Origin: Henricia sp. BOLD:AAB3569 | Lineage: Eukaryota; Echinodermata; Asteroidea; Spinulosida; Echinasteridae | Assembly: GCA_037783545.1 (NCBI GenBank) | Contig: JBBELK010000093.1 | Coordinates: 1 to 64,000, forward strand | Direction of reading: 5' to 3' | DNA: 64,000 bases | Part shown: one piece after another, positions 13,723 to 36,539 of the stretch | Layout of the letters: every line of letters starts with the position of its first letter | Position numbering within the stretch: position 1 is the first letter of the stretch | Translations under genes and position numbers: made by a program | Notes under the pieces: model-generated | Seen by the model: the letters and a program-made list of their open reading frames with translations, nothing else | Told to the model about the DNA's origin: nothing | The model's database searches: none

Positions 13723-14068
13723 TCAGTTAGAAAAATAAGACTGGGCTATTTTCTGTCGCTCATCAACATCCACTGTTTCATCCTTTTCTTGACCCCATCC
13801 GATGACTTCCATTGGAATGTGGTGGCTGCCGCCCTTGGTTGCACATTCCACAGTAGGCTGGAGATAGCTAGGCTCGTTGCAGTAAGCGGCTCCAGAGATC
13901 GATGCTGGGCTGTCAACCTCACTCGATGCGTTCCAACCTTCGGGATTTTCTCTTGGAGACGAGTCATCATCTAACACAGCGACCAGGCGGTCAAGCTCCT
14001 CAACTATCTCTCCGAAAGAGCATCGCATCTTCGGTGAATCCTTCCAGCACTGCTGCATGATTTCAGAT
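13723..14068 (-). CDS. Receptor exon 27: end of kinase and C-terminal tail
   Basis: Codes residues 1539-1653 plus [18 protein letters not shown] ends the kinase. The tail is about 85 residues and rich in D, E, S and P. It holds two close tyrosines in the contexts YCNE (Y1601, a Grb2-type YxN site) and YLQP (Y1607), with a third, QSYFSN, at the very end. The stop is about 13 bp from the edge of a repeat copy, so the 3' UTR is probably repeat-derived. No convincing poly(A) signal was seen close by. Confidence 0.93.
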
Positions 14069-17000
14069 CTGAACAAAAATATCGAAAAATAAGACATATT
14101 ATGCTACAAGGTTTAGTATAATTTTCATTCCAAAATGCACGTGCGACAGTATTGGTGTCCCTAATCCGACTGTCAGGAGATTCCTGGCAGATACAGGCAT
14201 TTTTGTTTTCACCCATTCCCGAATTTAAGCCTAATCGCCGCGATTACAGCAATTTGTCAGTAAATCAAGGAATAGTTTTTGGCTGCCTTGGGATGATTCT
14301 CTCAGTCCGCTCGGTGCAAGATCGTAACAGTTTGGATAGCCCTGACGATTGTCGGGGTAATTCAGGAACAAATTGTTGTATTCGTAACCAATGATGGATA
14401 TTCCTACATAAGCTACCAATTTATTTTACTTTAAAAATAAAGAGGACTGCAGGGTCGAGTTTGGTCGCAATGTTTAATGACAGCCTTGCACATTTTAACG
14501 TACTGAACGCGCCCTTGCAACCCGTTATCATCCACAGGGGCAAGGACAAAGAAAGCGGTTTAATCGCACCCAGCATATAGCGCAGCACTGTTGCATCCTC
14601 GTTGCCAACCCGTTGCTACTTTTAACAGAACGAAGCACAGCATGTAATGTGTACAGGTAGCCTATTCTTTACGTACAGTTTCGGTGGAGATAATCCTGGC
14701 GGATCCATGCGTCTCCCTTGCTGGAGAAATTCGTAGACGTCCCTGTTACGAACCCCTGGATATGGCTGTCGACCTCCGGAAAACAGTTCCCACAGAAGAA
14801 CACCGTACGACCACTGGGGAAATATTTCTCATAAATTGGCATTTTTTCTGTTCATGAATGCTGCAAATTAATTTTAATCAGTAGGGAAAAATTGTGAAAC
14901 ATTCTTCTTCCATAGTGAGCCTCCATGCAACAACCTAGAGAACAGAATGCATGTAACTGTTTTGAGTGTGACAATATTTGGAGTGTTATGGCCGAGCGGT
15001 CTAGTGCGTCGAACTTAAGTTCCTGTGCTAGTACTAGAATTTAGGTTCGATTCCTGGCCGTGACGGGTAATCCGGTTGTGGCACCTGTGCCCTTGAGCAA
15101 GGCACTCAACCACACTTGCTCCCATTCCTGTAATTGGCGGTCCCTCTGCTGTTGGATGTGGTATATAAATAAAATAAAATAAAATAAAATAAAATATAAT
15201 CAGTTGCGTCGGCGAGAGCAGTCCTAAACAAAAAAGTATCGTTCCTCCTGGTGACAGTGTTGGTTGAAACCACGATCTTATACAGGGAAACCAGAGGGAG
15301 TACACTTAAATGCATCTTATCAGAGGTTTTGGGTTCGAAATCCAATGAGAGCCATTTGATTTTTCTTTCACCCCGCATTGTGTATTTGTGAAAGTCACAA
15401 TAAAAACAATGTTGTGCATTGGCACCATAGCCGCAGCCTGGCAGTTGAACTTACATACATGTGTAACAGAACACCGTGTGACTGTTGGGCCAATTTCCGG
15501 CAAGATAAACCCATCCGCAAGGGGTTAAGGATGATTCAGCCCCATGCAGATTGGGCGATTTTTAGTGCCACGAAAAGTGATGCAAGATTCGATAAAACGG
15601 TCCAAAAGTAGAATAACATGTTACTCAAATATTTCTTCAAAATGTTGTTAGTAATGACTTTTTGTGGCAAGACTAACTTGCACAAGCCTTCCCAAAATTT
15701 CGCTGAGGCAATTCCACCATAAGTGCCAAAGGGTGTGCCTGCATGATGTACCTTTCTGACTGGGCTCGTGCACCTCGAGGGCCGTTTGAAAGTGTGGCTC
15801 TAGAAGTCAGTTTAACCCACGCACGTTCAATCAGGTTTAAAGCCGAACAAAATGGGTTTTCTGCAGAGAGCCCTTAACCACAACATTCTCCCATAAACAG
15901 GAAATGTCACATTTCATTGCTGTGGGAATCACTTTAGTTCTTTTTGGAAATAGTATACAGAAAATCAAGGCACGTCTCGCTTCATTTGAGAGTTCTAACT
16001 TTGTACTTTAACTCACCACGTCTGTTTTCATGTTATACACCTTTCGTTCCATTGACTCCGGTGCCATCCACTTCACTGGAAGTTTGGCCTGCTTGTCTCC
16101 ACTTGTGTAATAATCCGACTCATCCAGATCACGAGATAATCCAAAATCCGCTATTTTGGCTGTCTCTTTATCATCGATCCTTGTATTCAATGGGAGAAAA
16201 CCGATAAATGTGATCTGCGACAACCGTTACTGTTGCTTGAATAACAAGATTTGGCGAATTTAGCGTTTGGGCTTTTTTAGGGCTACTGTACAGTTTTCTG
16301 TCGCGCGAAACAAACTGACCAATCCAGCGAGTCTTTTATGTTGTCTTTATTGGAACAATTTTAGGTGTACAGTTGTAGAAATCAAACCAAATGTGTGAAG
16401 ATAACAGTCCTTACATGCAGTTTCTTGCTGCTAAATCCCTGTGGACAAAATTCCGATCAGAAAGGTACTTCATCCCACGAGCTATGTGCAGGGCAAACGT
16501 CACAAGCTGTCGCACTCTCGGATTCTACAGTGGGATTATGTCAATATTTGCAAGAACATGAGCTATTATGTAAGAGTAACTGTATTTAATGGTAATGTCT
16601 ATATATTGCAAGTACATGTGAACATTGTATCACCCAACAAAAGGGAAATGGTAAATCATAATGCAAATTTCAGTTGAATTTACTCATCTCTTCAAGTAAA
16701 GTCAATTTAAAACGAAATAAGAAGCGAACTCCACAAGTTCATTATTTACCTGTTTTCGTTTTACTATATAGGACTTGAGATCACCGTTTGCCATGAAGGG
16801 AAGAACAATCAGGGGCTGACCGTTGGGGTCAAAGGTCAGACCGAACAGTCCGAGTACGTTGGGATGATCGAAGTTTTTCATCATTAACCCTTCCTCGAGA
16901 AATTTTATGACGTTGCGTGAATCACTTGCGTCTAAAATCAACAAATAATACATTCCATTTTGTTTCCGTACAAAGATGTAATCAGTCATAAATAGCTGAA

Positions 17001-20000
17001 CATTTAAGACAAGAATCAAAGATCCCTTTCCATCCCCTGGATGTTTAAAGAAAGATATAAAGAGAGTTGAATATAGTGTGGGTACACTTCTAGAACTTTA
17101 CTATATAGAACCTTGTATTGTCTTGACGGCCACTTGACGCTCAGATCCAGATGACGCCGCGTTCATAGTCGCCTGGTAAACTATCCCAAAAGCACCTGGG
17201 TTTATTGAATGAAACAGATAGCTCTAAAAAAAACAGTGGGAAAATGTGCATATTTCTGGCCAGTATGGAATGTGCTCGGAAAACACCTAGTTTTTTGGAG
17301 AACCTATAATAGGTGAGCAACAATTTCAAATGCAACAAATCTAACAAATGGCTGTTGAGAGAAAAGAAATAGCACCAGGTGCAAAAACGCTCATGGCTCC
17401 ATTGTTCTCTCCCTTGTTCTACATGTATAGGCCTAGAGAAGAATTACGGAAGAGTTTAGTGACTCCAAATGATATTATAGGCTTAACTGTACGATACGAC
17501 GGATGGCTAAACAATAACAAGAAACAAGTGATACGCACCCTGCCCAAGGACTTTCCCTATGTCCAGCTGACTGAATTTGATCTGCAGGTCGCCTGGCACA
17601 ATGCTTATATTGGCATTCAAAGCAACAGTCTTCGCAGGAATGACCGGTGGACGTTGTTCATCTGTACTGCCAAGCGATCGCCGTCTCCTTTCTGGAGGAG
17701 CTTGTTGGTCTATACGAAACAAACACGCCGGAGATTAAAGTGCATCCATATAGCGACACACCCGAACAGTGAATGCTTCCGAGCGTTCGCTCCTGTAAAA
17801 CTCATCATCGCCAATTATAATATATTTATAACGGAATGGATCTTGGTATTTCGCATTACGTGTTAAAAGTGAACAGTTAGTCCTGTGAAAAAAAATGTGG
17901 CATCGTACTATACCTTCATGAAGTTGTCGTATCAGAGTTAAGAGGCGCTCGTTGTATGTCCTCACAAGTTGCTTCTGCTTATTGTATTTGAACGCGAAGA
18001 CCACTATGAGAGCCAGCAAGGGAACCCCGACTATTGGAACGACTGTTGCCAGAAGGATAGTCAAATAGTTGCTTGGATAAATCACCTCTCCGGCGGTAAA
18101 CGTTTGGTCGGTATACCAGTGAACCTGCAACGACAGGGAAAACAGTCGCCTCAATTTATTTATCTGAAGAAAAAAAACGAGGTAAATTAACTGGGGAAAT
18201 CGCAATTGTTTGCCTGTGACAGTTTTCTATTATTAACCTGGTAATATCACAGCAGTGTGCAAAAAGCATATTAATTAAGTTAGAATGGTTCAGGAGCGTA
18301 TATCAAAAGAATGTCAATAAAGTAATGAGGGAATAATCTTACAACAGCTAATGGTATGCTCGTATCGGGGTTGCCGTCTGTATCCAAGCCAGGTGGTTCA
18401 TTCTCTGGAAGCACACAACTAATAAGAGTGCTAAAAAGGTTTTTTATCGTACAATTCTCGCTGCCAACCTTTACGTATATCTCCGTTTTATCCAATGCAT
18501 CCTTAAGCCTCTCACCCTGTCACAGACAAAAAAGAGACGGAAACTTTATTTTACCGTTAAACTGAAAATCAATCAAAAGGAGGCACAAACTCAAAAACAC
18601 GACAACCAGGCAGCGACAGTTGGCCGTACAGGCATTCACGTCACTGCATTCACGTCACAGTTTGAGCATGCAAGGTAGGCTTGCTACCGTGTGGCCATAC
18701 AGGCACTGCATTCACGTCACAGTTTGAGCATGCTATTGGGTTAGGTACTATTATTGAATCTGCCTATACTATACACAACCGTACCACAGTCAACCTGGGA
18801 TGGCTGCTAAGTTGATAGATAGTAATATACTTGAGGGTATAAACAAAAGTATGTACGGTGCATCATACTTACGGTGATTTGTAGAATGTTCCCGGAGTTA
18901 CTAATTTCAAATTGGCCATTAACAAACGTGTCGAATTCTGGATCCTGACAATAACTAAAGTCACCGATTAAAAGCTCAAGGTTATCCATCATGAAGCCCG
19001 GAGTGAATGTATTTGTCTTGTTCATTGGAGGAGACCTACACTCCATGGACGAGTCGCTTTCTATACTACATGCCTGTTACCAAGAGAAAATACATTCTAG
19101 TAAAAAGTCAAGTTAATATTTTGCAACATCTAAAACCTTGACATTGCCGTACGCGAGGCGAAAATCCATGGCTGTAGTGCGCAGCGTGAAAGGTGGGCCG
19201 ACTTTGCAGTACATTTACATGTAACTATGCGGCAAAAGTAATACACGATCAAAGAGCGGGAAATCCTTTGTCCATATTTCAGTGGTGGCATTAAGATTCC
19301 ACAGGAAATTCCACATGGTGTACAACCAAAACATGAGTAGCAGGCTCATTGCTACCAGTCTGTGAATGAGACGCGGAAAAAAATATGCGTGTCAGTGAGA
19401 CTAGCAAAATAACTACTCACTTCATCAGATGTCTCTTGGTCATTTCGAACAAAGATTCTTGCTACTTGCACAAATGAAAAACCAGTACCGTTGACCCTTA
19501 GTGTCCTTCCGCCACTATATGACAGAATGATACATTAAAACTAGAATTTAGGCACGACTAAATGCACCATGAGTTTGGCAGCATTGCATTGCTTTTCACG
19601 AAAGAGGTACACAACAGTCGGGCGAACATTGGGACTCGGGGCATTTATCTGAACAGAAGTAGAGCCTACGAAGAAGAAGCCTCTTCTCAGGAAGCACTTG
19701 CAATAAATCTATTCACCAGCTGATTTTGCAGTACATGTACAATATTTAACAAAATTTATTAAACAAAAGAAGCCTCTTCTCGTGAAGCACTTACAATAAA
19801 TATATTAACCAGCTGATTTTGCACTACTATATTTAACAAAATTTATCTGCACCTGGTGCCGCTTACCTTCGATAACTTTTACGAGGTTGTACATCCAATA
19901 CAGAGGGGTTTTTCTTAAAAGTAAACAATTCTGCTGATGTTCTTATAGCTCCGTCGAATATCACTGAAATTGGCCCGGTATTGTCTTGTATTGACATTCC

Positions 20001-23000
20001 AGTGCAGCATTGGAGAGAGGAAACAGTAACGCTGTATGCAAGGAAGATAGAATGTCCCAAAGATTTGATACATGTATAAAAGGCCAGTGATCAGTTTGCG
20101 GCTTCTGGTGTACCATAAGATATAAGAGTATGTATATGCTTCCCTTTGACCCTTCCTTTCATTCATATGAAAAGACTGAATTGCATGCAAATTGTACTCA
20201 CCTGCTCTGGATAATAAGACATGGAATATTCTTTCCGACAAAAGCTCGAATGTCTCTCCCCGTGTTCAGTTTGCTTCCTGTAACTGTGATCAGGGTTCCA
20301 CCGGCTTCAATTCCCTCAATGGGACTGAAACTGCCAATCGTGGGATTCTGGAGAGATAGAGAAGGTGCTAACTAATAAACCGATTCACAACACATTCATG
20401 TCAAAACACAAACATGTAGCCCGCTCCGTGGCAGAGAATAGATTTCCAGAACTTTTGACTTTGGTACACATTTGTTGTTTTGTTGTAAATTGTATGGCAT
20501 CTTAATCTAAAACTATACGGAATTAGATTACCTATACTTATTATCAATTTGAGATGACGAAGAAGGAGTTGAAATTTTATGAGTGGGAGGAAAAACCCTG
20601 GAGAAATCCCCACGCAGTCAAGTAGGGACTGCAAACCTAATCCACATACACGCCCCGGATTCGAACCCGGGACGCCAGAGGTGAAAGGCGAGGAAATAAC
20701 CACTACGCCAACCGGACCACCCCTTGATACGCATTCTACGACTTGAATTCGAGTTTTATAAGCACATGTCATTATGGTTGCCCTAAAGGGACTAAATATT
20801 GACGTACATATTCACATCCAAATTCACGACTTTCTCTTTTTCCCCCACAAATATTTACGTATATATTTGACGTCAAACTTCACGACCTTCCTCATTTCTA
20901 CAAATAGTGACTTACTTAATTAGCGACAAAACTTATGCTCATACCTGTTGGGCGACAATCACCATCATGTCTGGGCACGAGACTGAAACCAATGATATAC
21001 ATGTACACTGGTTTGAATGCAATATCAGAAACAATGTTTATGGCATGGCATAAACGTTATACCGTATATGTGAAGCTGACATCACCAGAGCTGGTCAACT
21101 GAGCACCATCTGGAGAGGAGACTGAAGCTACAGAGACGGTAATGGGCTGTGGTGTTCCAGGGTTCATTGGAGCGGTCCTGCAGCGAACACTGGAAAAACA
21201 TTGATGGAACTAGTCATTTAGTTAAACTACGAATGATACTAAAATGCAAGTATGTATGAACCTGCTTAAAAGTACTGCACCATTGTACTTCCAAGAAGAA
21301 AACAAATGTCCAAATCTTATTAACCAGGGCATAATTTGGCCAGTAAATGTTTAGTGCATGTAAAAGCTTAAAAGGTAGATTTGCAATAACTAAAATAGGA
21401 AAGGTCCACGGTATTAAAATAATCACTATATAAGAAAGGTACAGAAAGCTAGCAATCAATCACTAAAGTAAAATCAGAGCACCAGATTTTCAGCAGTTTA
21501 AAGAAAACAAGTTTTTGTCTAATTTTTTTGGAATAATTGACAGACTACAAGAAGAATCTGACTTCCCCTTCTATAACCACTATGCATATTTTTAAACTTG
21601 ACTATAGCGCTTTATTGTTTTAATGGGGAGGGGGTTGGAGTTAGATTCAGATTAGGCCACTGCTGAAACAATGTTAAATACCCTTTTCCAGTAATATATT
21701 GGTCACCGAGTCCAGTCAAGTCACAGGGCTGCTGACCCACCATCACACTGCGTACATCCTGAAACCTCCGTCCGATATTCGTCCCGATGATTTCAATGGT
21801 GGTGTTTCCTTCTATTGGTCCAGTGGGAGGATCCACCTGATGCCGTATTTAACAATCAATTAGGCATTATTTACTCAATATTTATTAAAACAAACGAGGA
21901 ATAATTACCTGCCGTTTCGTCTTTCAATATTTTAAAATCTGAAAGCACAGAACAAACGTCAAACAACGTTGACGTGCATGGTTTATTGCATTGTTACAGA
22001 TTAATGTAACAATCGGCGGATTTTACTTGACTGAGATTCACTGGCGTCAACAAATTTGATGATATAGTCTAAATCAAATACTTGCATTTTTAAAACAAAA
22101 TATCAGTTTCTAAAAACGAGAACCAGGCCTTACCGTTTCCAGATGAGGAGCAGGACACGGATCGCTGGAATCCAGAGACCCAGCGTTACACACAGAATCC
22201 TCCTTGAACGCACACCGGCTGCCGCACCACCGACACCCAAGCTCGGGTCTTGCCGTTTCACCAGACAGACATCGACTGCAGTCTTGACTATCAACATCAC
22301 ATTTATAAAGTGTGACTGCAAAGTACACAATCAGAAAGTTTCAATAAACACATAACACTGGCTAAACAATTTAAACGCAATATAACTAGTATGGTGGCTA
22401 TACACATGTGTAGCAATAAAATAACCAAACATGGGATACGAAATAACTCTATACACCTCTGGTATAATAATAATACCGGCGGTATAGTTAGCCTACATTA
22501 GCTGCGCTATGAGGCACAATGGCATGCTCAATAGTTTCCTTTCAGGAGCCCAATATTTCTCTTATAAAGTATGGTTGCACAACTGCTTATAATAACAATA
22601 TTATTTAATATGATGAAATAACGAAATGTAGGATGATGGAAAAATCACATGGTGCAAATATATTGCATTCGCTACTCATTGTTCGGCTATAAACATTTTA
22701 AGAAAATACAGTAAATTATATAGATAATATATAGTGTGGCAAATGTACATGTATAACCTCGTTGTATAGCCATCAGTCATCGATTTTCAACGTGTGACTT
22801 ACCTATGAAGTTATGAATATCGTCTAGCTGTCTGTTGCCATTCCAAACCACCTTCAATGACGCATCAAACGTCTGCTTTCTGGCGCTATATGTGTACTTT
22901 GAAAGGAAGGAAAAGACATAATCCAATAGGAGCTTATAATGTATCGATACATTTCATTAGAATGCTTCAAAGTATTCATCAGTTTACGTTGCTCATTTAT

Positions 23001-23819
23001 GAAAAAAACACGAGAGTCATCCTAAATGTAAATCAGTAAATCCTCAACGTACCATTCGACTGTCACACTGGATAACATCATTTGAAATCAATGTTGCTGT
23101 AGTGGTTTGTTCATCACCATCCACACTCAGGGAACATTGGTACTGCTTTGTAAACCGAAAATAAAAGGAACGATTTAGTACATGTAATAATTATGCCTAT
23201 CTGTGTGTAGTTAATAAATGTGCCTAAGTAAGTCTATTTGCTCCCCAACAAAACTTACAAAAAAATGTTTATGTGTGAAGCAGGTAAAACACTTGGAGAT
23301 CGAAACACGTGTTAAGTGAATTTATCTATAATGTCTATAATTGGAATAATGCTTGTACCATTTCCTCTCTAAAATTTTAAACCTTGTGAGGTATATCACA
23401 ACATAACTCACAAACGTGTTTGTCTTGGATCAGTACAAAATATGACAAACATCTGTGCAATGTTTTACCTGACTTGGGTAGGGCAAGTTGACGGCATTGA
23501 CGGAGATAATGCTGGGGATGCCAACCGGCACAAGCACCTCCCTCATCTGGGGTTGCAACTGTGGACAGAAGGACTGTCCACGCATAATGGACGCATCGGG
23601 ATTCTGCAAATATGTACAAAGTTGAAGTTTATTCAGCAAATTGTGACCTGTGCTTATTTCCCGAAATTTTGCATGCTTCATGTTGTTCATTCGTTGTTGA
23701 TAAAACAAGCCAAGCCAGGCGCTAACATCCAAAGGGGGTGGATGTGGGGCGTGGGGCGTGGGGGGTGGGGGTGGGGGTGGGGGGTGGGTGTGGGGGTGGG
23801 GTTGGGGGTGGAGGGTGGG

Positions 23820-23850
<31 letters not shown>

Positions 23851-26800
23851 CTCAAAACCCATCCCTGCTCTATCTGACACCAACAAATCAATGTAATGCA
23901 TTTTCTGTGTATCCCCCTATCCGCAACGAGCTGACATACGAAATCTGACTGGAAAAACCCCTCCCATGGTGGCAAAACCTCTCCCTAAATTAATGGATCC
24001 GCCCTAGACTAAACATTTTATACACTGCAATACAGTCAATATTTTCGCTATTCCACTGCATGACGTCTTTGAATTACATTATCTCCTGTGACGATGTAGC
24101 TATCTCCCTGAATGCACTCTTCACTCATGTGGGTGCACATGTTGTCGTACACACACCAATCACAATCCCAGTTGCTTGTAACACACGGTGTACACCTACG
24201 ATAAAGGTAATAGAAATGATTACAGCTCCATATCACGAATCTCTTAAGGAACTGTTCCATATTTTCCACACTGACACTGCTTATAATATGGCCAAAACTA
24301 AAACACACAGTACATTTAAATATCTCAACATTTCATGTTTGCGAATGAGATAATGAAAAGAATGGTGCGTCTTTATTTAAATCATGACAGTTTATTTGAA
24401 TCATCAAAGCTTGTTTATGGAGAGTTGAACCTTTTTGAGCACTAAACACAACACGGCCCAATTAAAAGTCCAAACATGATGTACCAATAATTTATCTTAG
24501 GAAATTGTCCCATTGTTGCAAACACACCTATTGGTCGAAAACAACGTGCGCAGTTCACAAGTGCGCGCAGTCGTACATGTGTGCGAAGTATCCCTCGGAT
24601 TTTTTGTGAAAAAACGTGACAATCAGAATTCTGTGTCTACATCTTAAAGATATGTTTAATTTAAAGACTTACGAGGAGTGTCTGGAACAGTCATAGAAGT
24701 TGAAAATTACAGATACAAAGTTGATGTCAGTCTCGGACGAAAACACACTCAACCGCATCCCAACGTGGTCTTCTGCAAAACAGATACAAAAACGGCAAGT
24801 TGTAAAATGGCAAAGAGTATATTTAATTTCACCCTTGAGTTCAGCGGAAGAAATTGATAAAAAGAAAACTGTGATGCCTTTCTAACAACATATAATCACA
24901 TCATGCACATCATAACGAATGAAAAAAATAGTAAAGGTAAATTACCCATTGATAGTATTGATGGTCTATCCCCCGTATCTGGAGTCCTACACTGTATAGT
25001 GTTGCTGTTGGTTGTTCCTGCAGACCGTGGTAGGTCATCGAATTGACAGATGTAGGATTCTCCGTCCTTAAGGTTCGGAAGCTGGTCTACTGTCAGTGTG
25101 ATCTGTTGGTAAATGATTGAAAATCGATCACTGTACTCAAAGTGTCTTTATACACACAGGCAATCGTTTCTATCCTTTCCACCAACATGGGTAAAGCGGT
25201 ACTATAGGTCATCGGAAATTAGAAGAGTCCGTATTTTATATTATGGTGCCGATGGAATATTTAGATACGAAAACAAAATTTATTCTGATAGAAATAAAAT
25301 TACGTTAAAATTGGTAAAAGTGACAGTAGTACGTGTATAAAATATGATATTCAAACATTGCTTGTGTATGTAATAGGAAGGTCACAATAATCTGCCCTTT
25401 TCTGATGTTATTTTTTATGAAAACTGGCAGACTATACGGTGTAGTTTTTTTTATTGACGCGTCATCAAGTCAAGACGATGTACGCTACCATTTGGGATGG
25501 ATCTGTTATTGCCAAGTTCTTGGGGTCTGTCTGATTGATGTCCACGCATTGTGCAACATCGTATGGTAACCAGCGACTGGATACAGAAGCCAACGGACAC
25601 TCACTGTGTCTGGTACACCTGTATGGCAAAAAGCAACGAATCGGTATAGAGTTAACTTATGTAGCCTATAATAGGTTCATAGATTTTTTTTTTTTTTATA
25701 GACACAACATTTGGTTCGGTGGGATTGGAGTTTAAACGCAATTTTGTATGTTTGGTGCGAAATCCGTCGCCTCCAAGATAATCAGGTTGGATCGCTATGA
25801 ACTGCCCGCCCCTTTCCCATTATACATCATTTAACGGGAATGCACATGAAAACATACACGTACACACGTTCTGTGACCTGTCAAGACGAAATGAGCGTAA
25901 AGTCGCACTCCGCTGTTTCCTATATAACGACGGGTTAAAAGTCAAAATTTTAGAAGGTCGATTTCAGGGTTTTCTAATGTTTAGAAATCAAATTTTATTT
26001 GATTCAAATTTTAGCGTCATTCAACAATTAAAAACATCATTTTCAGACCAATTTTGACGATAGCTTTCTTCGTAACCCGTAGAAAATTTTGTTTTAAGAT
26101 TTGTTTGAAGACTACCACTTCTCCAAGCGTGTTGTGTTAAGGGGATAGTTTTACCTTATGTGTTATATACCATTGCAAAGTTCTTTTTTATGCTGAATTT
26201 AAAAATACCAACATCCAATTTTTCAAAATTCCGACTTTACGCTCATTTCGTCGTGACATGCCACATATTATTGCCGTGATGTTGTATAGGCCCACGTGCA
26301 GCATGTTGTCTTAATACCTCTTTTGTAGTGTGCACCATCCGCAGTACGGGTCGCCATCTTGTCCTCCAGCTTCACCAATACAAGAGTTGCAGCTTTTGTA
26401 CTGGTTACAGTTCTCTACCCTCAATCTTAAAAACTACCAACAAAATGACATTTAACCATGCAACACGGAGAGAAGAATTGGGTCCATAGGGATAACACGA
26501 TGGAGTATACCAACTGTGCCTTATAGCTCAGCTGGTAGAGGATCTACCTATTGAGCCAGAGGTCTCGGGTTCGAATCCTGATAAGGCCCTTACGTTTCAT
26601 TTAAATGATGATCAGGCACCATATCAGATGTTGTGTTCAATATTTGTTCCTAACAGAATAGCTATTTTTCAGTGCAATGTATTTTTAAGTTAACAAACGT
26701 TAGGCTGATATAATTTGCACATCAAAATTACAATTGGACACACTGTATACGACATTTCCGTTTTCAAAGATTGTAGAACGCTTAATGTGTGTCACAAAAA

Positions 26801-29800: not shown

Positions 29801-32800
29801 ATCCAGTGTCCCCCTTACGTCACGACACTTCCGGAGTTGATTTTTATACATAACCTCAGCATATGAACAATATATGGCCTCGTAAATAGAACAACACCTT
29901 TGCCTGTTAATATTACCTAAAACATGACGAGAATGATTCAATAAACTGGTGCGATCTTCTATAAATGCAAGTGTGACATTTTGAAATTTATATTGAAGAA
30001 TTATTGAAATTTCGCTCATAATATATTTGAATTTATAAGGTACTGGTTCTACAGGTGGGGAAAACCAGAAGCTCCATTTTCCAGAAAGAACCTGGTCAAA
30101 AAGACTTTAAATGCAAGCGTAAGAATTTAAAAATGCCTTGGTGTCTCCACTTACGTCGGTAAACAACTTTCTTAAATATTTTCAAAACATGACCAAGACA
30201 TGTCTAAATGTTTGGAAAATGTTTCAAATATCATACACTATTCAGAAATTGCACGGATATTTCTTCAAAATATTTTGGTAACTTGAAATGGCCATTTTTA
30301 CAAATGCATCAAAATGTCACACTTTGGCCCCCGTATTATTTATGGAATGACCCGTGTATAAATTTACCAAAATCCGTGTTCAATCTGAACGAGAAACAAA
30401 AAAATACCTGAGAAGGTTACGTGTTAATCGGTTACAAATGGAAATGTTCAATATAAATCTCACCTTCAGCAATGCACCCTGTGATGTGCCAATGAAAGCG
30501 ACTGTGTGGTTCATCTCAATGCTGGTCACTATTGATGACATGCGAGTTCCTTCCAGCTGAAGCAATGGCATTGCTGGAACTACATCAGAGTCACTGCCTC
30601 TGGCATACTGGTATTCACCCTCCGTGTCGCACAGCCATGCTCTGTAATCTACACCTGCAGGGAGCTGCAAAAAGGAATCGATTGGATCCTTAAGTTCAGC
30701 ACTTACATGTACACATAAAAAAACTTTCATGCTTGTACAGCAATTCTAATACCCGAGAGACAGTGTCCCTGTTACATCCGAGATGTTTTTACCCTATTTT
30801 TGGATTTATGAATTTCATGAGTCAATACTATTTAGAAATATCAGTACATGTAGTTTAATGAAATAAAAAAATTCCATTATTTACAACAAAATTTAAGAGT
30901 AACAGTCAAACTAAATGGAATTATAAGTAATTTATGTACACATGTAGGTGTGATTTCAGTGGTTTTCAACCAATATTCTTGAACCACATAATTCATTTTA
31001 TATGCTTCTAAATTCAAATTACAATGATTGTGTAGGTCGTGTGTTAATGGCAAATTCAACAGATGATTACTTTTATGGTCGGGCTGATGAAATTAGGTAC
31101 TACATATTGGCAGTTACTTCGCAACCATCAATTTTATCAAATTCCATCAAGACTGAAAACCCAAACATTATCCCCAGGACTGGAAACGCAACCGTTTGAT
31201 GCAACATAATAGATGACTTGCTGACCACTTACAAAATGTACAATGTATGTAGGCATATTGGCCATATTATAAAAATGAAGAAATTTCACATTTTGTTTCT
31301 CAACTTTTTGGAATGACCTTGTGAGTGAGAACTTTGTTATCAATGTATCCTTACAGAAATCTTCCAAGCTTGCTGCAAGCGTGTCTGCAAGCTTGCGGCA
31401 AGCTTGTGGGCGCCTCCATCTTGACAATGTATTTTGGCAAACAATCCATCCACATAAAGTCATTGAGCAAACGTTAGTGCCAACGTTAACATCCCGTTCG
31501 CGTATTTGGAACGCAGCCCAGATGACAAAAATCTACACATTCGGTATATAAAACAAATATTGACTGCTGTTTATTCGGGTCATGGTTAAGATTATAGGCC
31601 CTCGATCGGTGATCTCGAAGCCATGACTATGCCCCTCGGCTTCCGCCTCGGGGCATACATGTACATGTAGTCATGGCTTCGAGATCACCTTGGGCCTATA
31701 ATCTTAACCATGCCCCTCATTGCAGTCAATATTTGTATAATATTGAATGCTTTTTTTTCTGGGTCTTGGTTAAGATTACAATATGCTACGTACAGGCCTT
31801 CAGTGATGTCAAAGCCATGACCATGCCCCTCGGCTTCCGCCTTGGGGCCTATAATCTGGCTGATGGGTTGTTTGATTATTTTTGCATGTTTCTACTCTCT
31901 GACATGTCTGATATATTAATGATCAATCCCTCGTTTCCTTTTAAAAGAAGTGAAAATTGAGACTCATTTTTAACCCACAAATTTGCTCTTCGCTGGAAAA
32001 TATCAAAATTCTGCCGCTGCGGGCAGCAAACAGACTTGGCCAATATCGTGATGTCATTTTACGGACTCCATTCCATCCTGGAAAAACAAAGTTCTGGCTT
32101 GCAATAATTCAACAGTCTGATGCCGCACACATGTTAAAAGGAACATGTGTTTAGTGTTATTCCCCTTGCTACATTTATAAAAACGGGCTACAATACATGT
32201 ATGTGCATGCATTGAGCTTCCCGCTTGAACAGCATAAATATATTTTACTCACCGTTTCCGTCAAAAAAGTTGGCTTTTGTAATGGAATTTCAAAATTGCA
32301 CTATTTTAATGCCCCTAAACCTAAAAATTACTTTGGACAACAGAATTGGCCAAAAAACAGTGAAAGAAAGAAGAAACGACGACCTCGTCTGGCCTACCGT
32401 ACCATGCAGTCAGTGTTCTGTTGCCAACTCTTGATCAATTCTTCCTCGGTTATTGAATGTAACTACATGTACACATGTACATCACTGTCTTCATGTAATG
32501 AATGTGGTGAAAACAAATACAAAATTGCTATCCTTATAATAAAAAAAACCCCACTACAACACTTGAGTCACTGCACAATGCGGCGCCAGCAAGAAACAGC
32601 CAAAATTCTGATGATTTTCTTAAGGCCGATTAATTCCTTGTTTATCATTACTCAAAGTCATATTTTTTGGCCGGGATCCGGAGGGCCTTTGATATTTGAT
32701 ATTTCAAGTTAGTATTACATGTAGATAGTCATGAATCGATAGTCAATGCATGCGGCATACTCCATGTGGGTATTATTATTATTACTTTCTGGTATTCATA

Positions 32801-35800
32801 CCAAGGATTCCTCAATAGTGCTCATTGCACTGTCACTCGCAAGCGTGAGGAAACCCATGAAGAATTAGAATTAGAAATGGCCAGAGACACCGGGGATGAT
32901 CCCCCTTGCTCTTCACGAAAGAATGCTCTGGGATCTTTATAGTGCGTTTCCATTACCTAACACACTGGACCAACGGCTTTACGTCCCTTCTGAAGGATGG
33001 AGCAAGTGTGTTTGAGTGCCTTGCCCAAGGGCACAGGTACCATAGCCGTGGGGAGGTTCGAACCTGCAACCCCAAGTCTTCACCTATGATTGCGAGTCAA
33101 TGACCTAAACCGCTCGACCACGGTACCCCATGGGTTAAACCTGGAGGTGGTTGGAGTTATACCCGGAGGTACATGTGTACATGTACGTGTACGCGCAATT
33201 GGTGCAAATCAAAGTCCAGATTTGTCAAAGTATGGCATAAGTAGCTAGGGGTTCTACTCTATGTGCCTCAACTGCATGAAATCAGAACACACAGGTCTCC
33301 ATCCACCTCCGGGTTTTAATACAAAATTCCCCATTCGTCGAGTGCGCGAACTGTTTCACAGAGGTAAACAAATATACCATATCGCCAATCGTGTTTCACC
33401 AACAGAGGGCGCCCTTCTGCAAAGCACTATGGGATTTTTCAGTGGTCAAACTATCAATGGTTTGATCCATGGAGCTATATTTAGAAAACTAGAGTGCGCA
33501 GTCGCTATACTGTGCGCGCTACGCGGGCGTGCCGCCCTGGGACCGCGTCCGCCATTTTGTTAGTGGACAAAATGATTGATAAATACCCGGATGTATCCAC
33601 TGCAGTCAACGGCGCGGCAGCTATAAATAGGCTTTTGAATGATTTATTGGCTGTTTAACACCAGTCATGAGTGACATTTTCCTATTGTACTTAGGCAGGT
33701 ATGAATACCGTACACCTCTGCCACTAATTGTGACATAATAATGTAACAGAAAGTGCGAATTTGGTTAGAAACGTGATTTTGGAATGAAAAAATTTCCAGT
33801 TTTTCTCTTGGAAAACGGGTTATGCCATGCTCCATGTACTTAATGCATGGACCCAACTGGCGGTTTCAGGCAGTCGGTTTCAGTTCACCGGGAAATCCTG
33901 CACCTGTTTCATACTGGCGCACCACAGTCGCGCCGAACTAAATTATCCCAGAAATTTGAATTAAGTTCGACGTATGAAACAATTTGGAGCGACTTGGTTC
34001 GCCAGAAGTCGAAAGATCGACTGTTCCAGTCGGTCAGAACGACTGAACAGCAACTTGGTTTCAGACGTCGATCTTTAGTGCATGTGCGCATGGCTCGCAT
34101 TAAGACGGCTGTCTGAAACAAAATTTTAATCGGAACGACTCTGGTGCGCCTGTATGAAACGGCTGTTACTTTCCCCCAAGTCAGTGGCTGAGGTAATAAT
34201 ATACCCTAATTAAGTTGCTCTATCTACACACGCAAAGAGCAGTGGGGGACGGAGCAGGAAAGAATTAAGAAGTTGATGGTGGCTTCAGACCTTGTGTGCA
34301 AAATGCATGAGGCAGGCTGAACAAAAATCCAAAGTGTTTCCTCACAAAATATTAAACTTTGCCACTCCAAATTTAGAGTTTTTCCATCAAATCTGCACAT
34401 TCCAATGCTAGATAAGTCATTAAAAAAAATCTGATCAAATTCCCAAATCTTATACAGTACCCGGGCGACGATTTTGGATGTTGTTTGGCCCATGGAGGAA
34501 GAAAACATGTTTGGCCTAACTAAAGTTTCAATCTTTTAAAGTAAAATATAAACAGGGGACAATGTTTCGACAGTCAGGATGATTGTAGTTAGCAACCACA
34601 TCTTTCTGCACCCCTATCACTGAAAGCATTAATCTTAAAATAAAATTTAAGCTGAAAATACGCACGTCGTCAATACATTAGCACGTACTTTTTGCCCACT
34701 AACAAAATGGCGTCCACGCACCCTTGAGGGCACGGGGTCAAGTACTCACTCTAGTTCCTATATATAGCTCTATGGTTTGATCCCTAATAAATCCCATAGT
34801 GCTTTGCAGAATTAGGGCGCCCTCTGTTGGTGAAACACGATTGGCGATATGGTCTATTCGCTTGACACAGGGGTTTACCAAGCAGACGCTTGAGGCTACA
34901 TATAGGATTGGGCTTCGATTTCTGCGCTCGTATGGTCATCACCGCCACGCGGTGACTGAACATTTTCCAGCTGAGTTTAGCATAAACACTGTATTTCGTA
35001 AACACCCCCACACTGCGACAGCTGAATGTGAACAGCATGTGAACAGCGTGCGACTGGCCGTACATGTATGTGTCAGCCGGCTATGGTTGAGGGCAAGACT
35101 GGAGAATTAGAAGGACACAAGACCATTGTTGTGGCGCGGAGACATCCACAAGGTTGAAAAGGGCTGGGAATTTTTTACAAAATTGAAAATATCAAATATA
35201 AAAAAAAAATCAGGGCGGTAGGGAAAATCCGGTTGGGTGGTGATGATAAACAAGGAATTAATTGTAATCGGCCTATGGCAAACCTTTTAGATTTCAAAGT
35301 GCCCATTTTTCACATTGTTTGCTTGGCATATTAAATGGATGTAAATTATGTATTTAATGGTTTTAAATGTTTTTGTTTTTAGGGGAGGGGGAATTCTGTC
35401 TCCATCGTATTTCGTTAACATGCTGTGTCAATGAATACATGTATGTACAAGTTTAGATGCATGTAAAAACAACTTACAATATCACTGCATTTGCTGCCTT
35501 GCAGATAAGGTACTTGATAATCAGATCCCTCCTGAATGCAGTTACTCACAGCCGTCTCAACTGCATTCACAATGTCAGTCATACTGAATGCACACAGAGC
35601 TGAGCTATCGCCAGGTGCATTGGTGGAGCCAACGTTCTTGGCAAAGACTGCAAACAGCATCGAAGCTCCTGTATCAATTCCTAGTGATTCTGCTAAGGCT
35701 GGTCCCGCTGTTCCAAAGTAAGCAGCTTGAGCTAGGTTGTACAGGTTGAGTCCGTTACCACACTGCAGGGTGATCTCTGTGTAGGAATCTAAATCAGCAC

Positions 35801-36539
35801 TGGTCTGGCAAACGCGAACCACTTTGGAGACAAATACCGGACGAGTAGACTGCTCCAGTTGCTGTGCAGTGACGAAATATGCGAAGCCATCTGAATCAAA
35901 GCCGTATACATAGTTAATGTCAAATGGATTACTTTTGTAGTCAGTTGTAAAATAAACTGAATTGCCTGCATAAAGAAAACCCCCGTCAGGTAATAGATCT
36001 CGTCTTGCAATTGGTGCAACTGATGTGCCTGAATCAATATTAAATGTGCTTGCTACATATAGCCAGTCCCTATTTTCAGGCCCAGGTGCTAGTATACTGA
36101 CAGTGGTTTTGTCTCTGCCTGGAGACACCCTAATCTTATTCCTTGAGATTATTGTCAGTTCCTCCGTGTATCTCTGCTGACAAGTCCCAATACTGTCACT
36201 CCCACAGGTGATCAGTGTATTTCTAGTGGGGTCCACGAAGAGAACTTTGTTATAGTTGAGACACCCATCCTGATCACTTGTACAATCTTCCTCCGTACTA
36301 ACGTTTGCCCGAAGCAGTAACTGGTCATTCAGCCGGTAGAGTGAATTCACAGCTCCGATGTATATGTTGGAATTGTTTAAAAGCACATGATTTAGCTTAG
36401 AGTTGGAATCTGGATCTGGGTTTTGGAATGCTGCAATCTGATAGGCTGAAAGTTGGCCGGTCCGTTGCGCAACAGCTGTCTTGCACAGTGTACTGAGAGC
36501 CAGTACTAGGAGCAACATTGTTTGGATCTGTCCATCCAT
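13723..36539 (-). CDS. MET-like: Plexin-ectodomain / MET-type receptor tyrosine kinase, 27 coding exons
   Basis: Predicted cell-surface receptor tyrosine kinase of about 1653 residues, assembled by hand from 27 exons. All introns are GT-AG and all phases are compatible, with 4962 coding bases including the stop. Domain order: signal peptide (1-25), Sema (about 26-466), PSI1 (about 474-528), IPT1 (about 545-633), PSI2 (635-673), IPT2 (674-772), PSI3 (773-832), IPT3-IPT6 (833-1195), membrane helix (1207-1231), juxtamembrane segment, tyrosine kinase (about 1305-1570), short tail. The kinase has GQGAFG, VAVK (K1338), HRDLAARN (D1432), DFG (1450-1452), an activation-loop DYY (Y1462/Y1463) and [11 protein letters not shown], all MET-like, so it should be active. 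MET itself has one PSI and four IPTs. Three PSIs with interleaved IPTs is the plexin plan. By family knowledge the ligand could be a semaphorin or an HGF/MSP-like protein; nothing here decides. The start has a good context (GCAATGG) followed by a hydrophobic signal sequence. Exon edges are inferred, without transcript support. Confidence 0.93.
14677..14813 (-). CDS. Receptor exon 26: kinase C-lobe
   Basis: Codes residues 1494-1539, phase 0 in and 2 out: [20 protein letters not shown], then [11 protein letters not shown]. Joined to exon 25 it restores DVWSYGV. The donor CT|GTACGT was preferred over a site 4 bases downstream because only it avoids a stop in exon 27. Confidence 0.93.
14981..15192 (+). 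mobile_element. tRNA-derived SINE, (AAAAT)n tail, receptor intron 25
   Basis: Starts with a tRNA-Leu/Ser-like head (GTTATGGCCGAGCGGTCTAG, then box B GGTTCGATTCC), has a body with GCCCTTGAGCAAGGCACTCA, and ends in repeats of AAAAT. A second copy with the same structure is at 59320-59517. Antisense to the receptor. Confidence 0.85.
16017..16179 (-). CDS. Receptor exon 25: DFG and activation loop
   Basis: Codes residues 1439-1493, phase 2 in and 0 out. Reads [20 protein letters not shown], then [12 protein letters not shown]. The paired tyrosines Y1462/Y1463 correspond to the MET activation-loop pair. [10 protein letters not shown] is MET-family wording. Confidence 0.95.
16415..16524 (-). CDS. 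Receptor exon 24: catalytic loop
   Basis: Codes residues 1403-1439, phase 0 in and 2 out. Contains [17 protein letters not shown] followed by RDLAARNC. D1432 is the catalytic base and RDLAARN is the tyrosine-kinase form of the loop. Donor GTAAGG. Confidence 0.95.
16750..16931 (-). CDS. Receptor exon 23: kinase N-lobe
   Basis: Codes residues 1342-1402, phase 1 in and 0 out. Reads [20 protein letters not shown], then [17 protein letters not shown]. The FL.EG..MK.F.HPNVL and LP.M..GDL stretches are strongly MET/RON-like. The E of EEG is the likely helix-C salt-bridge glutamate. Confidence 0.95.
17112..17195 (-). CDS. Receptor exon 22: glycine loop and ATP-binding lysine
   Basis: Codes residues 1314-1341, phase 1 at both ends: [12 protein letters not shown], then [10 protein letters not shown]1338 in VAVK is the expected ATP-anchoring lysine. 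The donor CAAG|GTTCTA is weaker than the others but fits phase. Confidence 0.9.
17539..17709 (-). CDS. Receptor exon 21: juxtamembrane segment and start of kinase
   Basis: Codes residues 1257-1314, phase 1 at both ends. Contains [10 protein letters not shown], with an RRxS-type basic serine site, and then [14 protein letters not shown], the start of the glycine loop. The acceptor gtttcgtatag was chosen because an in-frame TAA lies just upstream and this AG alone gives the right phase. The donor splits the GQG|AFG loop. Confidence 0.88.
17914..18124 (-). CDS. Receptor exon 20: membrane helix and start of juxtamembrane region
   Basis: Codes residues 1187-1257, phase 0 in and 1 out. After a short extracellular stalk comes one hydrophobic helix of about 25 residues (1207-1231, [12 protein letters not shown] to LIVVFAF). 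A basic stop-transfer segment, KYNKQKQ, follows. This fixes the topology as single-pass type I. Confidence 0.92.
18343..18516 (-). CDS. Receptor exon 19: IPT6
   Basis: Codes residues 1129-1186, phase 0 at both ends. Begins [18 protein letters not shown], then [16 protein letters not shown]. It completes the last IPT (I.G..L.......I.V.VG...C.I..L....I.C..P). Acceptor tgtgacag, donor GTAAGA. Confidence 0.9.
18873..19073 (-). CDS. Receptor exon 18: IPT5 end and IPT6 start
   Basis: Codes residues 1062-1128, phase 0 at both ends. Reads [18 protein letters not shown], then [10 protein letters not shown], and ends [11 protein letters not shown]......G.M.D...L......Y..DP.F..F is shared by plexins and MET. 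Acceptor ggtaacag, donor GTAAGT. Confidence 0.92.
19421..19514 (-). CDS. Receptor exon 17: IPT5, part 1
   Basis: Codes residues 1030-1061, phase 2 in and 0 out: [17 protein letters not shown], then [20 protein letters not shown] is the typical opening of an IPT in plexins and MET. Donor GTGAGT. Confidence 0.9.
19867..20031 (-). CDS. Receptor exon 16: IPT4, part 2
   Basis: Codes residues 975-1030, phase 2 at both ends. Reads [13 protein letters not shown], then [12 protein letters not shown], then [17 protein letters not shown]. The F.F..NP.....P transition marks the start of the next IPT. Acceptor gcatacag, donor GTAAGC. Confidence 0.88.
20202..20347 (-). CDS. Receptor exon 15: IPT4, part 1
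   Basis: Codes residues 927-975, phase 0 in and 2 out. Reads [20 protein letters not shown], then [26 protein letters not shown] is the usual IPT-to-IPT transition, which argues against an extra exon in the preceding intron. Confidence 0.92.
20472..20724 (-). mobile_element. tRNA-derived SINE with (CAA)n tail, receptor intron 14
   Basis: Reverse-complement copy of the family at 40.7-41.3 kb: box A region GGTTGGCGTAGTGG, box B GGGTTCGAATCC, TTTGCAGTCCCTACTTGAC, and a CAA-rich tail. Same transcriptional direction as the receptor. Confidence 0.85.
21063..21189 (-). CDS. Receptor exon 14: IPT3, part 2
   Basis: Codes residues 884-926, phase 2 in and 0 out: [20 protein letters not shown], ending DVSFTYT. 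The FTYT ending leads directly into the next IPT when joined to exon 15. Donor ACG|GTATAA precedes an in-frame stop, so the exon cannot extend further. Confidence 0.88.
21682..21836 (-). CDS. Receptor exon 13: IPT3, part 1
   Basis: Codes residues 833-884, phase 0 in and 2 out. Reads [20 protein letters not shown], then GQQPCDLTG. The P..GP.EG.T...I.G.N.G opening is a classic IPT/TIG start. Donor placed at AAAAGG|GTATTT by phase. Confidence 0.9.
22134..22315 (-). CDS. Receptor exon 12: PSI3
   Basis: Codes residues 772-832, phase 1 in and 0 out. Begins [16 protein letters not shown], then [12 protein letters not shown], and ends [12 protein letters not shown]....C..CL......C.WC...C is the third plexin PSI. 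Its presence completes the three-PSI plan. Acceptor tttgcag, donor GTAAGG. Confidence 0.9.
22803..22872 (-). CDS. Receptor exon 11: IPT2, part 3
   Basis: Codes residues 749-772, phase 0 in and 1 out: [20 protein letters not shown]. The L.VVWNGN stretch is diagnostic of plexins just before PSI3. Acceptor gaaagcag, donor GTAAGT. Confidence 0.88.
23053..23142 (-). CDS. Receptor exon 10: IPT2, part 2
   Basis: Codes residues 719-748, phase 0 at both ends: [20 protein letters not shown], then [10 protein letters not shown]. It continues the plexin pattern (Y.C.L...G......A...S..V.C). Only 90 bp, so visible only through splice sites and frame. Confidence 0.87.
23469..23603 (-). CDS. Receptor exon 9: IPT2, part 1
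   Basis: Codes residues 674-718, phase 0 at both ends. Reads [19 protein letters not shown], then [19 protein letters not shown]. The CPQL......LVPVG.P..I...A.NLP series is characteristic of the plexin segment after PSI2. Acceptor tatttgcag, donor GTAAAA. Confidence 0.9.
23740..23850. repeat. G-rich tract in receptor intron 8
   Basis: GGGGGT and GGGGTGT repeats running into about 25 pure G on the plus strand. On the receptor strand this is a C-run, so the transcript carries C and the template strand carries G. Confidence 0.95.
24078..24195 (-). CDS. Receptor exon 8: PSI2
   Basis: Codes residues 634-673, phase 2 in and 0 out. Reads [20 protein letters not shown], then [10 protein letters not shown]. 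The CxxC.....C.WC.Y...C......C pattern is the second PSI of plexins, which vertebrate MET and RON lack. The donor AAT|GTAATT is inferred from frame and from the next exon. Confidence 0.88.
24673..24772 (-). CDS. Receptor exon 7: first IPT, part 2
   Basis: Codes residues 601-634, phase 1 in and 2 out. Reads [19 protein letters not shown] and ends [11 protein letters not shown]. The F.FYDCS ending leading directly into PSI2 is a plexin hallmark. Acceptor tttgcag, donor GTAAGT. Confidence 0.88.
24946..25102 (-). CDS. Receptor exon 6: first (atypical) IPT, part 1
   Basis: Codes residues 549-601, phase 0 in and 1 out. Reads [19 protein letters not shown], then NTIQCRTP. In plexins this segment between PSI1 and PSI2 folds as an IPT-like domain and carries the same L..LP.L..GE.Y.C core. 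Acceptor ccaacag, donor GTAATT. Confidence 0.88.
25489..25618 (-). CDS. Receptor exon 5: second half of PSI1 and linker
   Basis: Codes residues 505-548, phase 2 in and 0 out. Reads [11 protein letters not shown], then [13 protein letters not shown], closely following the plexin CTR.SEC......RW.......QC pattern. MET PSI is shorter and lacks this stretch, so this exon is good evidence for a plexin-like rather than MET-like ectodomain. Confidence 0.9.
25877..26260. repeat. 384-bp MITE in receptor intron 4
   Basis: TGTCAAGACGAAATGAGCGT at the left is matched in reverse by ACGCTCATTTCGTCGTGACA at the right. The inverted ends are about 28 bp and the interior is AT-rich. It lies 58 bp from exon 4. 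Confidence 0.75.
26318..26433 (-). CDS. Receptor exon 4: first half of PSI1
   Basis: Codes residues 467-505 and ends in phase 2. Reads [15 protein letters not shown], then [11 protein letters not shown], the cysteine pattern of a plexin PSI1 (VENC.QY.SC..C.....P.CGWC). The acceptor gttggtag was chosen over two downstream AGs because only it keeps phase and gives the normal spacing between the end of Sema and the first PSI cysteine. Confidence 0.9.
26517..26588 (+). tRNA. tRNA-like sequence, probably a pseudogene or SINE head
   Basis: Seven-base acceptor arms GCCTTAT / ATAAGGC pair perfectly. A D-arm-like AGCTCAGCTGGTAGAG and a good T-arm (TCGGGTTCGAATCCTGA, with box B GGTTCGAATCC) are present. 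The anticodon stem (TCTAC / GCCAGA) pairs badly, so the anticodon cannot be read with confidence (ATT if the loop is CTATTGA). No T-run follows. Most likely a decayed tRNA or a tRNA-derived repeat within receptor intron 3. Confidence 0.45.
28046..28456 (+). CDS. RPL32: Ribosomal protein eL32 (RPL32), intronless, nested in receptor intron 3
   Basis: Intact 136-codon gene for large-subunit protein eL32, a structural component of the cytosolic 60S ribosome. Hallmarks run the full length: [55 protein letters not shown], and the terminal ARLRSEENE. Length matches the family (about 135). It has no intron, although animal RPL32 genes usually have several, so it is either a retained retrocopy or an intron-poor functional gene. 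Some usually conserved positions differ (for instance [10 protein letters not shown]). An AATAAA lies at 28475. No poly(A) tail or clear target duplication is visible, so any retroposition is old or secondary. It runs antisense to the receptor. Confidence 0.95.
28475..28480 (+). terminator. AATAAA poly(A) signal of RPL32
   Basis: Canonical hexamer 19 bases after the RPL32 stop codon, suitably placed for its short 3' UTR. Confidence 0.65.
28838..28993. repeat. 156-bp near-perfect fold-back in receptor intron 3
   Basis: TATAGTAATAGGCTGGATCC at the left matches the right end in reverse. GAATTAGTGGCTTTGGCTGT pairs with ACAGCCAAAGCCACTAATTC. The loop is about 35 bases. It lies about 380 bp downstream of RPL32. 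Confidence 0.85.
29094..29121. repeat. (ATT)n microsatellite
   Basis: TCATTATTATTATTATTATT run in receptor intron 3. Confidence 0.85.
29234..29368 (-). CDS. Receptor exon 3: end of the Sema domain
   Basis: Codes residues 422-466, phase 0 at both ends. Reads [19 protein letters not shown] and finishes [10 protein letters not shown]. It matches the last Sema strand of plexins (VQLHV..SPVL.D......YV.SE.Q). Too short to stand out as an ORF, but the acceptor (aaactcag), donor (GTAATT) and phase are all consistent. Confidence 0.92.
29458..30407. repeat. 950-bp fold-back element filling receptor intron 2
   Basis: Outer arms: GGTTCAGATTGAACACTGAT at 29466 against ...GTGTTCAATCTGAAC near 30376. A second inverted pair (CTTATTCAATTCTAAGATAT / ATATCTTAGAATTAAATAAG) bounds 29511-29773. 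It ends only about 55 bp from exon 2. A related copy is at 52150-52540. Confidence 0.7.
30464..30664 (-). CDS. Receptor exon 2: Sema domain, continued
   Basis: Codes residues 355-421, phase 0 at both ends. Begins [10 protein letters not shown] after a tttttgcag acceptor. Ends GTSQGALLK before GTGAGA. The GT..G.LLK stretch is a standard late blade of the plexin/MET Sema domain (AFIGT..G.LLKV in relatives). Intron 1 before it is about 4.8 kb and filled with repeats. Confidence 0.93.
31559..31730. repeat. Long palindrome in receptor intron 1
   Basis: GGTTAAGATTATAGGCC at 31583 pairs with GGCCTATAATCTTAACC ending at 31709, and GTGATCTCGAAGCCATGACT pairs with AGTCATGGCTTCGAGATCAC. Outer ATTGACTGC / GCAGTCAAT also match. 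A related sequence follows at 31764-31860. Confidence 0.8.
32768..33128 (-). mobile_element. tRNA-derived SINE of a related family, receptor intron 1
   Basis: Read on the minus strand: head with GTGGTCGAGCGGTTTAG and box B AGGTTCGAACC, body with GCCCTTGGGCAAGGCACTCA (shared with the other SINEs), a longer 3' part, and an (AAT)n-type tail at the low-coordinate end. Confidence 0.75.
33374..34860. mobile_element. 1.5-kb element with about 130-bp inverted ends, receptor intron 1
   Basis: TACCATATCGCCAATCGTGT at 33375 is complemented at about 34838-34858, and pairing continues through ACCAACAGAGGGCGCCCT, GCAAAGCACTATGGGATTT and AGCTATAT. CCGCCATTTTGTTAGTGG (about 33548) pairs with CCACTAACAAAATGGCG. 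Inside is a second palindromic unit (about 33903-34162). No transposase seen. Confidence 0.7.
35478..36539 (-). CDS. Receptor exon 1: signal peptide and most of the Sema domain
   Basis: Codes residues 1-354, phase 0 at its end. It opens with a signal peptide (MDGQ, then a Leu/Val/Ala-rich core ending near AVAQ) and continues into the Sema beta-propeller. Recognisable stretches are [16 protein letters not shown], then GCLNYNKVL, then [13 protein letters not shown]. The donor GTAAGT begins at 35477. One large exon holding most of Sema is typical of plexin genes. An upstream acceptor-like site (cttttacttgcag) suggests this exon begins near 36617 with about 78 bases of 5' UTR, so at least one non-coding exon may lie further up. 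Confidence 0.93.

Follow-up and report, generated by a model that had tools for sequence, protein, structure and literature searches.

The window, a stretch of 64,000 nucleotides, carries on its minus strand a 27-exon gene whose product is, very probably (about 0.92), a Met-LP receptor tyrosine kinase, i.e., a receptor of the kind that Junqueira Alves et al. 2019 named "Met-like with plexin ectodomain" (PMC6374515). Judged from its translation, the predicted receptor combines, within one reading frame, the complete ectodomain of a plexin with a MET-family tyrosine kinase, and it agrees with the definition in the available text of that paper, in which the same complete plexin ectodomain and an intracellular tyrosine kinase are described in one protein; the match is one of described architecture. 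The fusion architecture itself is thus already known since 2019 as Met-LP (PMC6374515, as far as its accessible text goes). A sequence-only reading of this DNA had listed an earlier description of this architecture for MET in related species among its refuting conditions; this condition bears on the novelty attached to the gene, since the available text of PMC6374515 places Met-LP in both Lophotrochozoa and Echinodermata.

Structure of the gene and its product

The exon chain, rebuilt from the window sequence, starts with an ATG at 36539 and ends with the stop codon at 13725-13723 (Table 1), exactly the coordinates that the sequence-only reading had proposed. All introns have GT-AG ends (26/26), the phases are compatible at each junction, and the joined frame of 1651 amino acids contains no internal stop. 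Where more than one splice site was available, preference went to the one that kept the phase, came closest to the consensus and agreed best with plexin or kinase sequences. The length of 1653 residues given before is two residues longer than that of the rebuilt protein, a difference probably due to a splice choice of one or two codons.

Table 1. Features located in the window, with the evidence for each (aa, residue numbers of the predicted receptor).
Feature	Position	Strand	Evidence
Exon 1: larger part of Sema propeller (aa 26-354), preceded by signal peptide (aa 1-25, by eye)	35478..36539	-	open frame, donor gtaagt, phase 0; Sema-PSI1 region against Drosophila PlexA 217 bits
Exons 2-3: remaining Sema, to aa 466	30664-30464, 29368-29234	-	Pfam Sema 55.7 bits on segment
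Exons 4-5: PSI1 (aa ~467-535)	26433-26318, 25618-25489	-	PF01437 37.3 bits
Exons 6-7: IPT1 (aa 537-627) and first part of PSI2	25102-24946, 24772-24673	-	TIG_plexin 73.5 bits
Exon 8: PSI2 (plexin-specific)	24078..24195	-	PSI_PlexinA-B 42.2 bits
Exons 9-11: IPT2 (aa 685-773) with VVWNGN (aa 754-759)	23573-23469, 23142-23053, 22896-22803	-	TIG_2 ("found in plexin") 72.1 bits
Exon 12: PSI3 (aa ~770-830)	22134..22315	-	PSI_Plexin-B 20.7 bits, below cut-off 27; cysteine pattern fits
Exons 13-20: IPT3-IPT6 and one transmembrane helix (aa ~1204-1229, by eye)	21836-21682, 21189-21063, 20347-20202, 20031-19867, 19514-19421, 19073-18873, 18516-18343, 18124-17914	-	TIG 42.7, 34.8, 22.9 and 28.4 bits (cut-off 20.9)
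Exons 21-27: juxtamembrane part, tyrosine kinase (aa 1304-1562), C-tail with Y1599 and Y1605, stop	17709-17539, 17195-17112, 16931-16750, 16524-16415, 16179-16017, 14813-14677, 14068-13723	-	PK_Tyr 303.9 bits; placed in MET family by both search and tree
Decayed partial duplicate of exon 1, upstream of the gene	48483-47628	-	window searched with the protein by tblastn; 3 pieces, 68, 81 and 72% identical
Ribosomal protein L32 open frame, intact, intronless, 136 aa	28046-28456	+	Pfam Ribosomal_L32e 173.8 bits; antisense in intron 3 of the receptor gene
Histone 3' UTR stem-loop match	60349-60394	+	Rfam RF00032, 37.8 bits (gathering 34)
Weak tRNA-like match	26516-26590	+	Rfam 31.1 bits (gathering 29); ARAGORN without assigned amino acid

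The domains of the receptor are arranged in the order of Sema, PSI1, IPT1, PSI2, IPT2, PSI3, IPT3-6, one membrane helix and a tyrosine kinase. The domain search that had been suggested for the translation was run, and the whole protein matches Pfam models of Sema, PSI (two stretches), PSI_PlexinA-B, TIG_plexin, TIG_2, TIG (four stretches) and PK_Tyr_Ser-Thr in the plexin order. When ten hand-cut segments of the ectodomain were scanned singly, nine of them exceeded the curated Pfam cut-offs, with scores from 22.9 bits for IPT5 to 73.5 bits for IPT1, so that the ten-domain order claimed for the ectodomain is borne out. PSI3 is the exception: its best model, PSI_Plexin-B, stays below the cut-off with an E-value of 0.00038, though its cysteines and its place in the domain order fit a PSI domain. 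PSI2, the VVWNGN segment and PSI3 had been described as plexin-specific and in frame with the kinase; all of them are indeed in frame, and PSI_PlexinA-B and TIG_2 match, while for PSI3 the claim lacks a Pfam score above the cut-off.

At the intracellular side, the kinase motifs (21 residues, letters not shown) are intact, as is the YY of the activation loop. No Pfam match to a plexin cytoplasmic or GAP (RasGAP-type) model was obtained in the 1651 residues up to E 0.1, and an NCBIfam scan gave bacterial kinase models only, all below their cut-offs. Together with the PK_Tyr score and the MET/RON affinity described below, this upholds the earlier view that a MET-type tyrosine kinase takes the place of the plexin GAP region. 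No furin-type site was found outside the membrane, the sole RX[KR]R match (residue 1262) being intracellular.

The membrane-helix exon 20 and exon 21 are separated by an intron of only 204 bp and the next intron has 343 bp, behind which an exon carries the end of the glycine loop; these gaps leave little room for GAP exons. Because the phases stay compatible from the membrane exon over both short introns into the kinase exons, the locus is regarded as a single gene. The idea of two separate genes was rejected on the same grounds of distance and compatible phases, and a misreading of two adjacent genes, or of an assembly chimera, as one is very unlikely, as both halves are open and the same architecture is known in other animals.

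Affinity of the kinase

Among the best 60 of 980 matches to PDB chains, the single-domain scores of the window kinase are highest for MET (277 bits) and RON (260), followed by MER (241), AXL (233) and insulin receptor (229). The top summed score in the same set, 337.9 bits, belongs to a tandem EGFR construct and is spread over two copies of 167.8 bits each; this construct is not a closer relative of the window kinase. A separate kinase phylogeny was built, as the sequence-only reading had advised: in a tree of 13 rows the kinase of the window gene branches as sister to MET+RON with support of 96/96, and AXL/MER/TYRO3 form the next branch (92/91). In this tree the MET and EGFR rows came from database output (apart from the last four MET residues), and the other ten human rows were entered by hand. 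The TAM family (AXL/MER/TYRO3) was rejected as the source of the kinase, a clade of the window kinase and TAM having a p-AU of 0.030.

When the kinase part is aligned to human MET, its six exon junctions come after codons 1086, 1113, 1174, 1210, 1266 and 1311, with phases 1, 1, 0, 2, 0 and 2, respectively. We take the ends of human MET exons 15-20 to be the same in both position and phase at six out of six junctions; the MET values are background figures, set down before the mapping but after the exon sizes of the window gene were known, and the comparison was made with MET only. In the literature searched, as far as its text was accessible, no printed MET exon boundaries were found beyond a 141-bp deletion for the mouse exon equivalent to human exon 14. 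The comparison of intron phases with MET that had been called for thus yields equality at all six kinase junctions, with background values standing on the MET side. On the sequence evidence, the predicted kinase belongs to the MET family (MET/RON).

Affinity of the ectodomain

The Sema-PSI1 region scores highest with plexins of the A type (Drosophila PlexA 217 bits, PlexA4 204, PlexA1 186), then with PlexB1 (147), MET (104), Plexin-C1 (62) and RON (53). The contrast is smaller by global-alignment identity than by score: 31-36% for Plexin-A rows, 31.8% for Plexin-B1, 29.4% for MET and 25.8% for RON. A separate ectodomain phylogeny had also been proposed, and its outcome is less sharp than that of the kinase. 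The best Sema tree of 10 rows puts the window receptor with plexins, beside Drosophila PlexA with weak support (77/78), and none of three clades held together was rejected: with MET+RON (p-AU 0.145), with Plexin-B1 (0.229) or with all Plexin-A (0.223). Long branches were flagged in this tree for RON, Plexin-B1 and the window row, and the MET/RON Sema branch has a length of 2.18.

The IPT3-6 region, by contrast, is colinear both with IPT1-4 of MET and with IPT3-6 of PlexA1, and the two tie at 96.9 bits each, with pairwise identities of 32.1% for MET, 29.2% for Plexin-A1 and 25.2% for RON. This contrast between Sema and IPT3-6, compared without an outgroup, could come from a chimera or from unequal rates.

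The receptor is like MET and RON in its kinase family, its Sema-PSI start, and four IPTs (its IPT3-6), and presumably like MET also in its kinase intron positions and in having two close tyrosines in the tail. MET and RON have one PSI and four IPTs, whereas three PSIs and six IPTs are present here, so the truncated ectodomain is absent; compared with MET, the furin-type site outside the membrane and a counterpart of exon 14 were likewise not found. With plexins A/B, the receptor shares the full Sema-PSI-IPT-PSI-IPT-PSI-IPT-IPT-IPT-IPT ectodomain, including the matches to TIG_plexin, TIG_2 and PSI_PlexinA-B; unlike them, it has a tyrosine kinase where plexins have the GAP cytoplasmic region.

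Origin of the fusion

According to the available text of PMC6374515, Met-LPs are found beside ordinary Met genes: one in Capitella teleta, one in Aplysia californica and four in the starfish Acanthaster planci. In its Sema+PSI tree they are polyphyletic, starfish Met-LPs grouping with starfish Plexin-Bs (PP 1.0) and lophotrochozoan Met-LPs with local plexins, and two kinase-acquisition events were inferred (PMC6374515, same text). That text gives no kinase tree; one is contributed here, together with the intron positions.

One reading of the two events is that plexins independently acquired an unrelated tyrosine kinase. The polyphyly of Met-LPs speaks for it, but for the window gene the sister position to MET+RON and the match of introns, whose MET side is background, argue against such an acquisition; the kinase evidence from the sequence makes it very unlikely here. 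A different account starts from the MET-type kinase: the IPT-TM-kinase half of a MET-family gene may, within a lineage, have captured a neighboring plexin ectodomain or been gene-converted by it. Such re-fusion or recombination, a serious possibility that we would put slightly short of even odds, is consistent with Sema-PSI1 scores far higher for plexin-A than for MET beside IPT3-6 equally close to both and a MET-type kinase, and with the Plexin-B model as the best one for PSI3. Furthermore, one Plexin-B and one Met-LP adjoin in A. planci, as the accessible text reports (PMC6374515). On the other hand, the long MET/RON Sema branch alone can produce the contrast, and the contrast comes without a breakpoint.

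Or Met-LP may be the ancestral form of MET: a single plexin-kinase fusion in stem Bilateria would have given Met-LP, and MET/RON would have lost IPT1-PSI2-IPT2-PSI3 and gained the exon-14 juxtamembrane part. The branching of the kinase just outside MET+RON agrees with this history, as do the kinase introns matching those of MET (taken as background), the colinearity of MET IPT1-4 with IPT3-6 at a score equal to that of plexin-A1, and the p-AU of the Sema clade with MET+RON. Against it stand the best Sema tree, in which the window receptor sits weakly with plexins, and the published grouping of Met-LPs with starfish Plexin-Bs or local plexins (PMC6374515, in the text available). We regard the ancestral history as doubtful, and equally tentative is its corollary that the two independent kinase acquisitions of the published account are an effect of using Sema+PSI sequences only. 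Because of the grouping of published Met-LPs with local plexins in that text (PMC6374515), re-fusion is slightly favored over the ancestral form.

Juxtamembrane region

Exon 20 joins directly, in phase 1, to exon 21, with which the kinase part starts and which matches MET exon 15; MET exon 14 is presumably bordered by phase 1 as well. A tblastn search of the window with a MET juxtamembrane sequence entered by hand revealed no counterpart of this exon: the best 20 matches had E-values of 3.4 or worse, and none of them lay between 18124 and 17539. If a further in-phase donor, at 17860, is used instead, exon 20 gains 18 codons, and the juxtamembrane length varies accordingly. Loss of MET exon 14 drives human cancers. 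A 141-bp deletion for the mouse counterpart of human MET exon 14 transformed mouse fibroblasts, according to the available text of PMC11042802. The missing counterpart in the window gene suggests that the regulatory segment of MET exon 14 is perhaps a later addition.

Intron 20 itself (17913-17710, minus strand), read on in the frame of exon 20, meets no stop until close to its end. Its retention would yield a short-tailed membrane receptor that lacks the kinase.

Surroundings of the gene

The decayed copy of part of exon 1 that lies upstream of the gene is interrupted by two frame breaks and one stop, and it ends abruptly inside the Sema domain. No further receptor-like exons were detected by tblastn up to E 1 elsewhere in the window, including downstream of the duplicate. 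In the available text of PMC6374515, Met-LPs of A. planci are multiplied, one of the four standing beside Plexin-B; the duplicate here fits this expansion in Acanthaster, as a remnant only.

The L32 frame in intron 3 is probably a retrocopy, with AATAAA soon after its stop; no poly-A tract was found in the 180 bases following the frame. When four other frames of the window were scanned with Pfam, three gave no match and the fourth was L32. The histone stem-loop match is perhaps a remnant or due to chance; inspection by eye of the three plus-strand frames over the preceding 600 bases revealed no histone frame. The tRNA-like match is possibly part of a dispersed repeat.

Implications for signaling and for the MET family

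By analogy with plexins, a Sema-domain ligand, such as a semaphorin, would bind the receptor and dimerize its Sema-PSI-IPT ring, and the two MET-type kinases would trans-phosphorylate Y1460/Y1461 in the activation loop. SH2 adaptors may then dock on two tyrosines of the tail that are six residues apart, Y1599 (YCNE) and Y1605 (YLQP), YCNE presumably being a GRB2-type pYxN motif; this resembles MET, whose adaptor tyrosines Y1349 and Y1356 are seven apart. Without a GAP domain, the receptor would signal through its kinase, in place of the Rap inactivation expected of a plexin. Semaphorins have been proposed as possible remaining ligands of Met-LPs (PMC6374515, in its available text).

The useful part of the present analysis is the comparison of kinases and introns, which ties the window kinase to MET itself. 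The origin of this important oncogene family is now testable: either the kinases of all Met-LPs fall with MET in a single clade and their ectodomains go with the local plexins, or the two halves are congruent.
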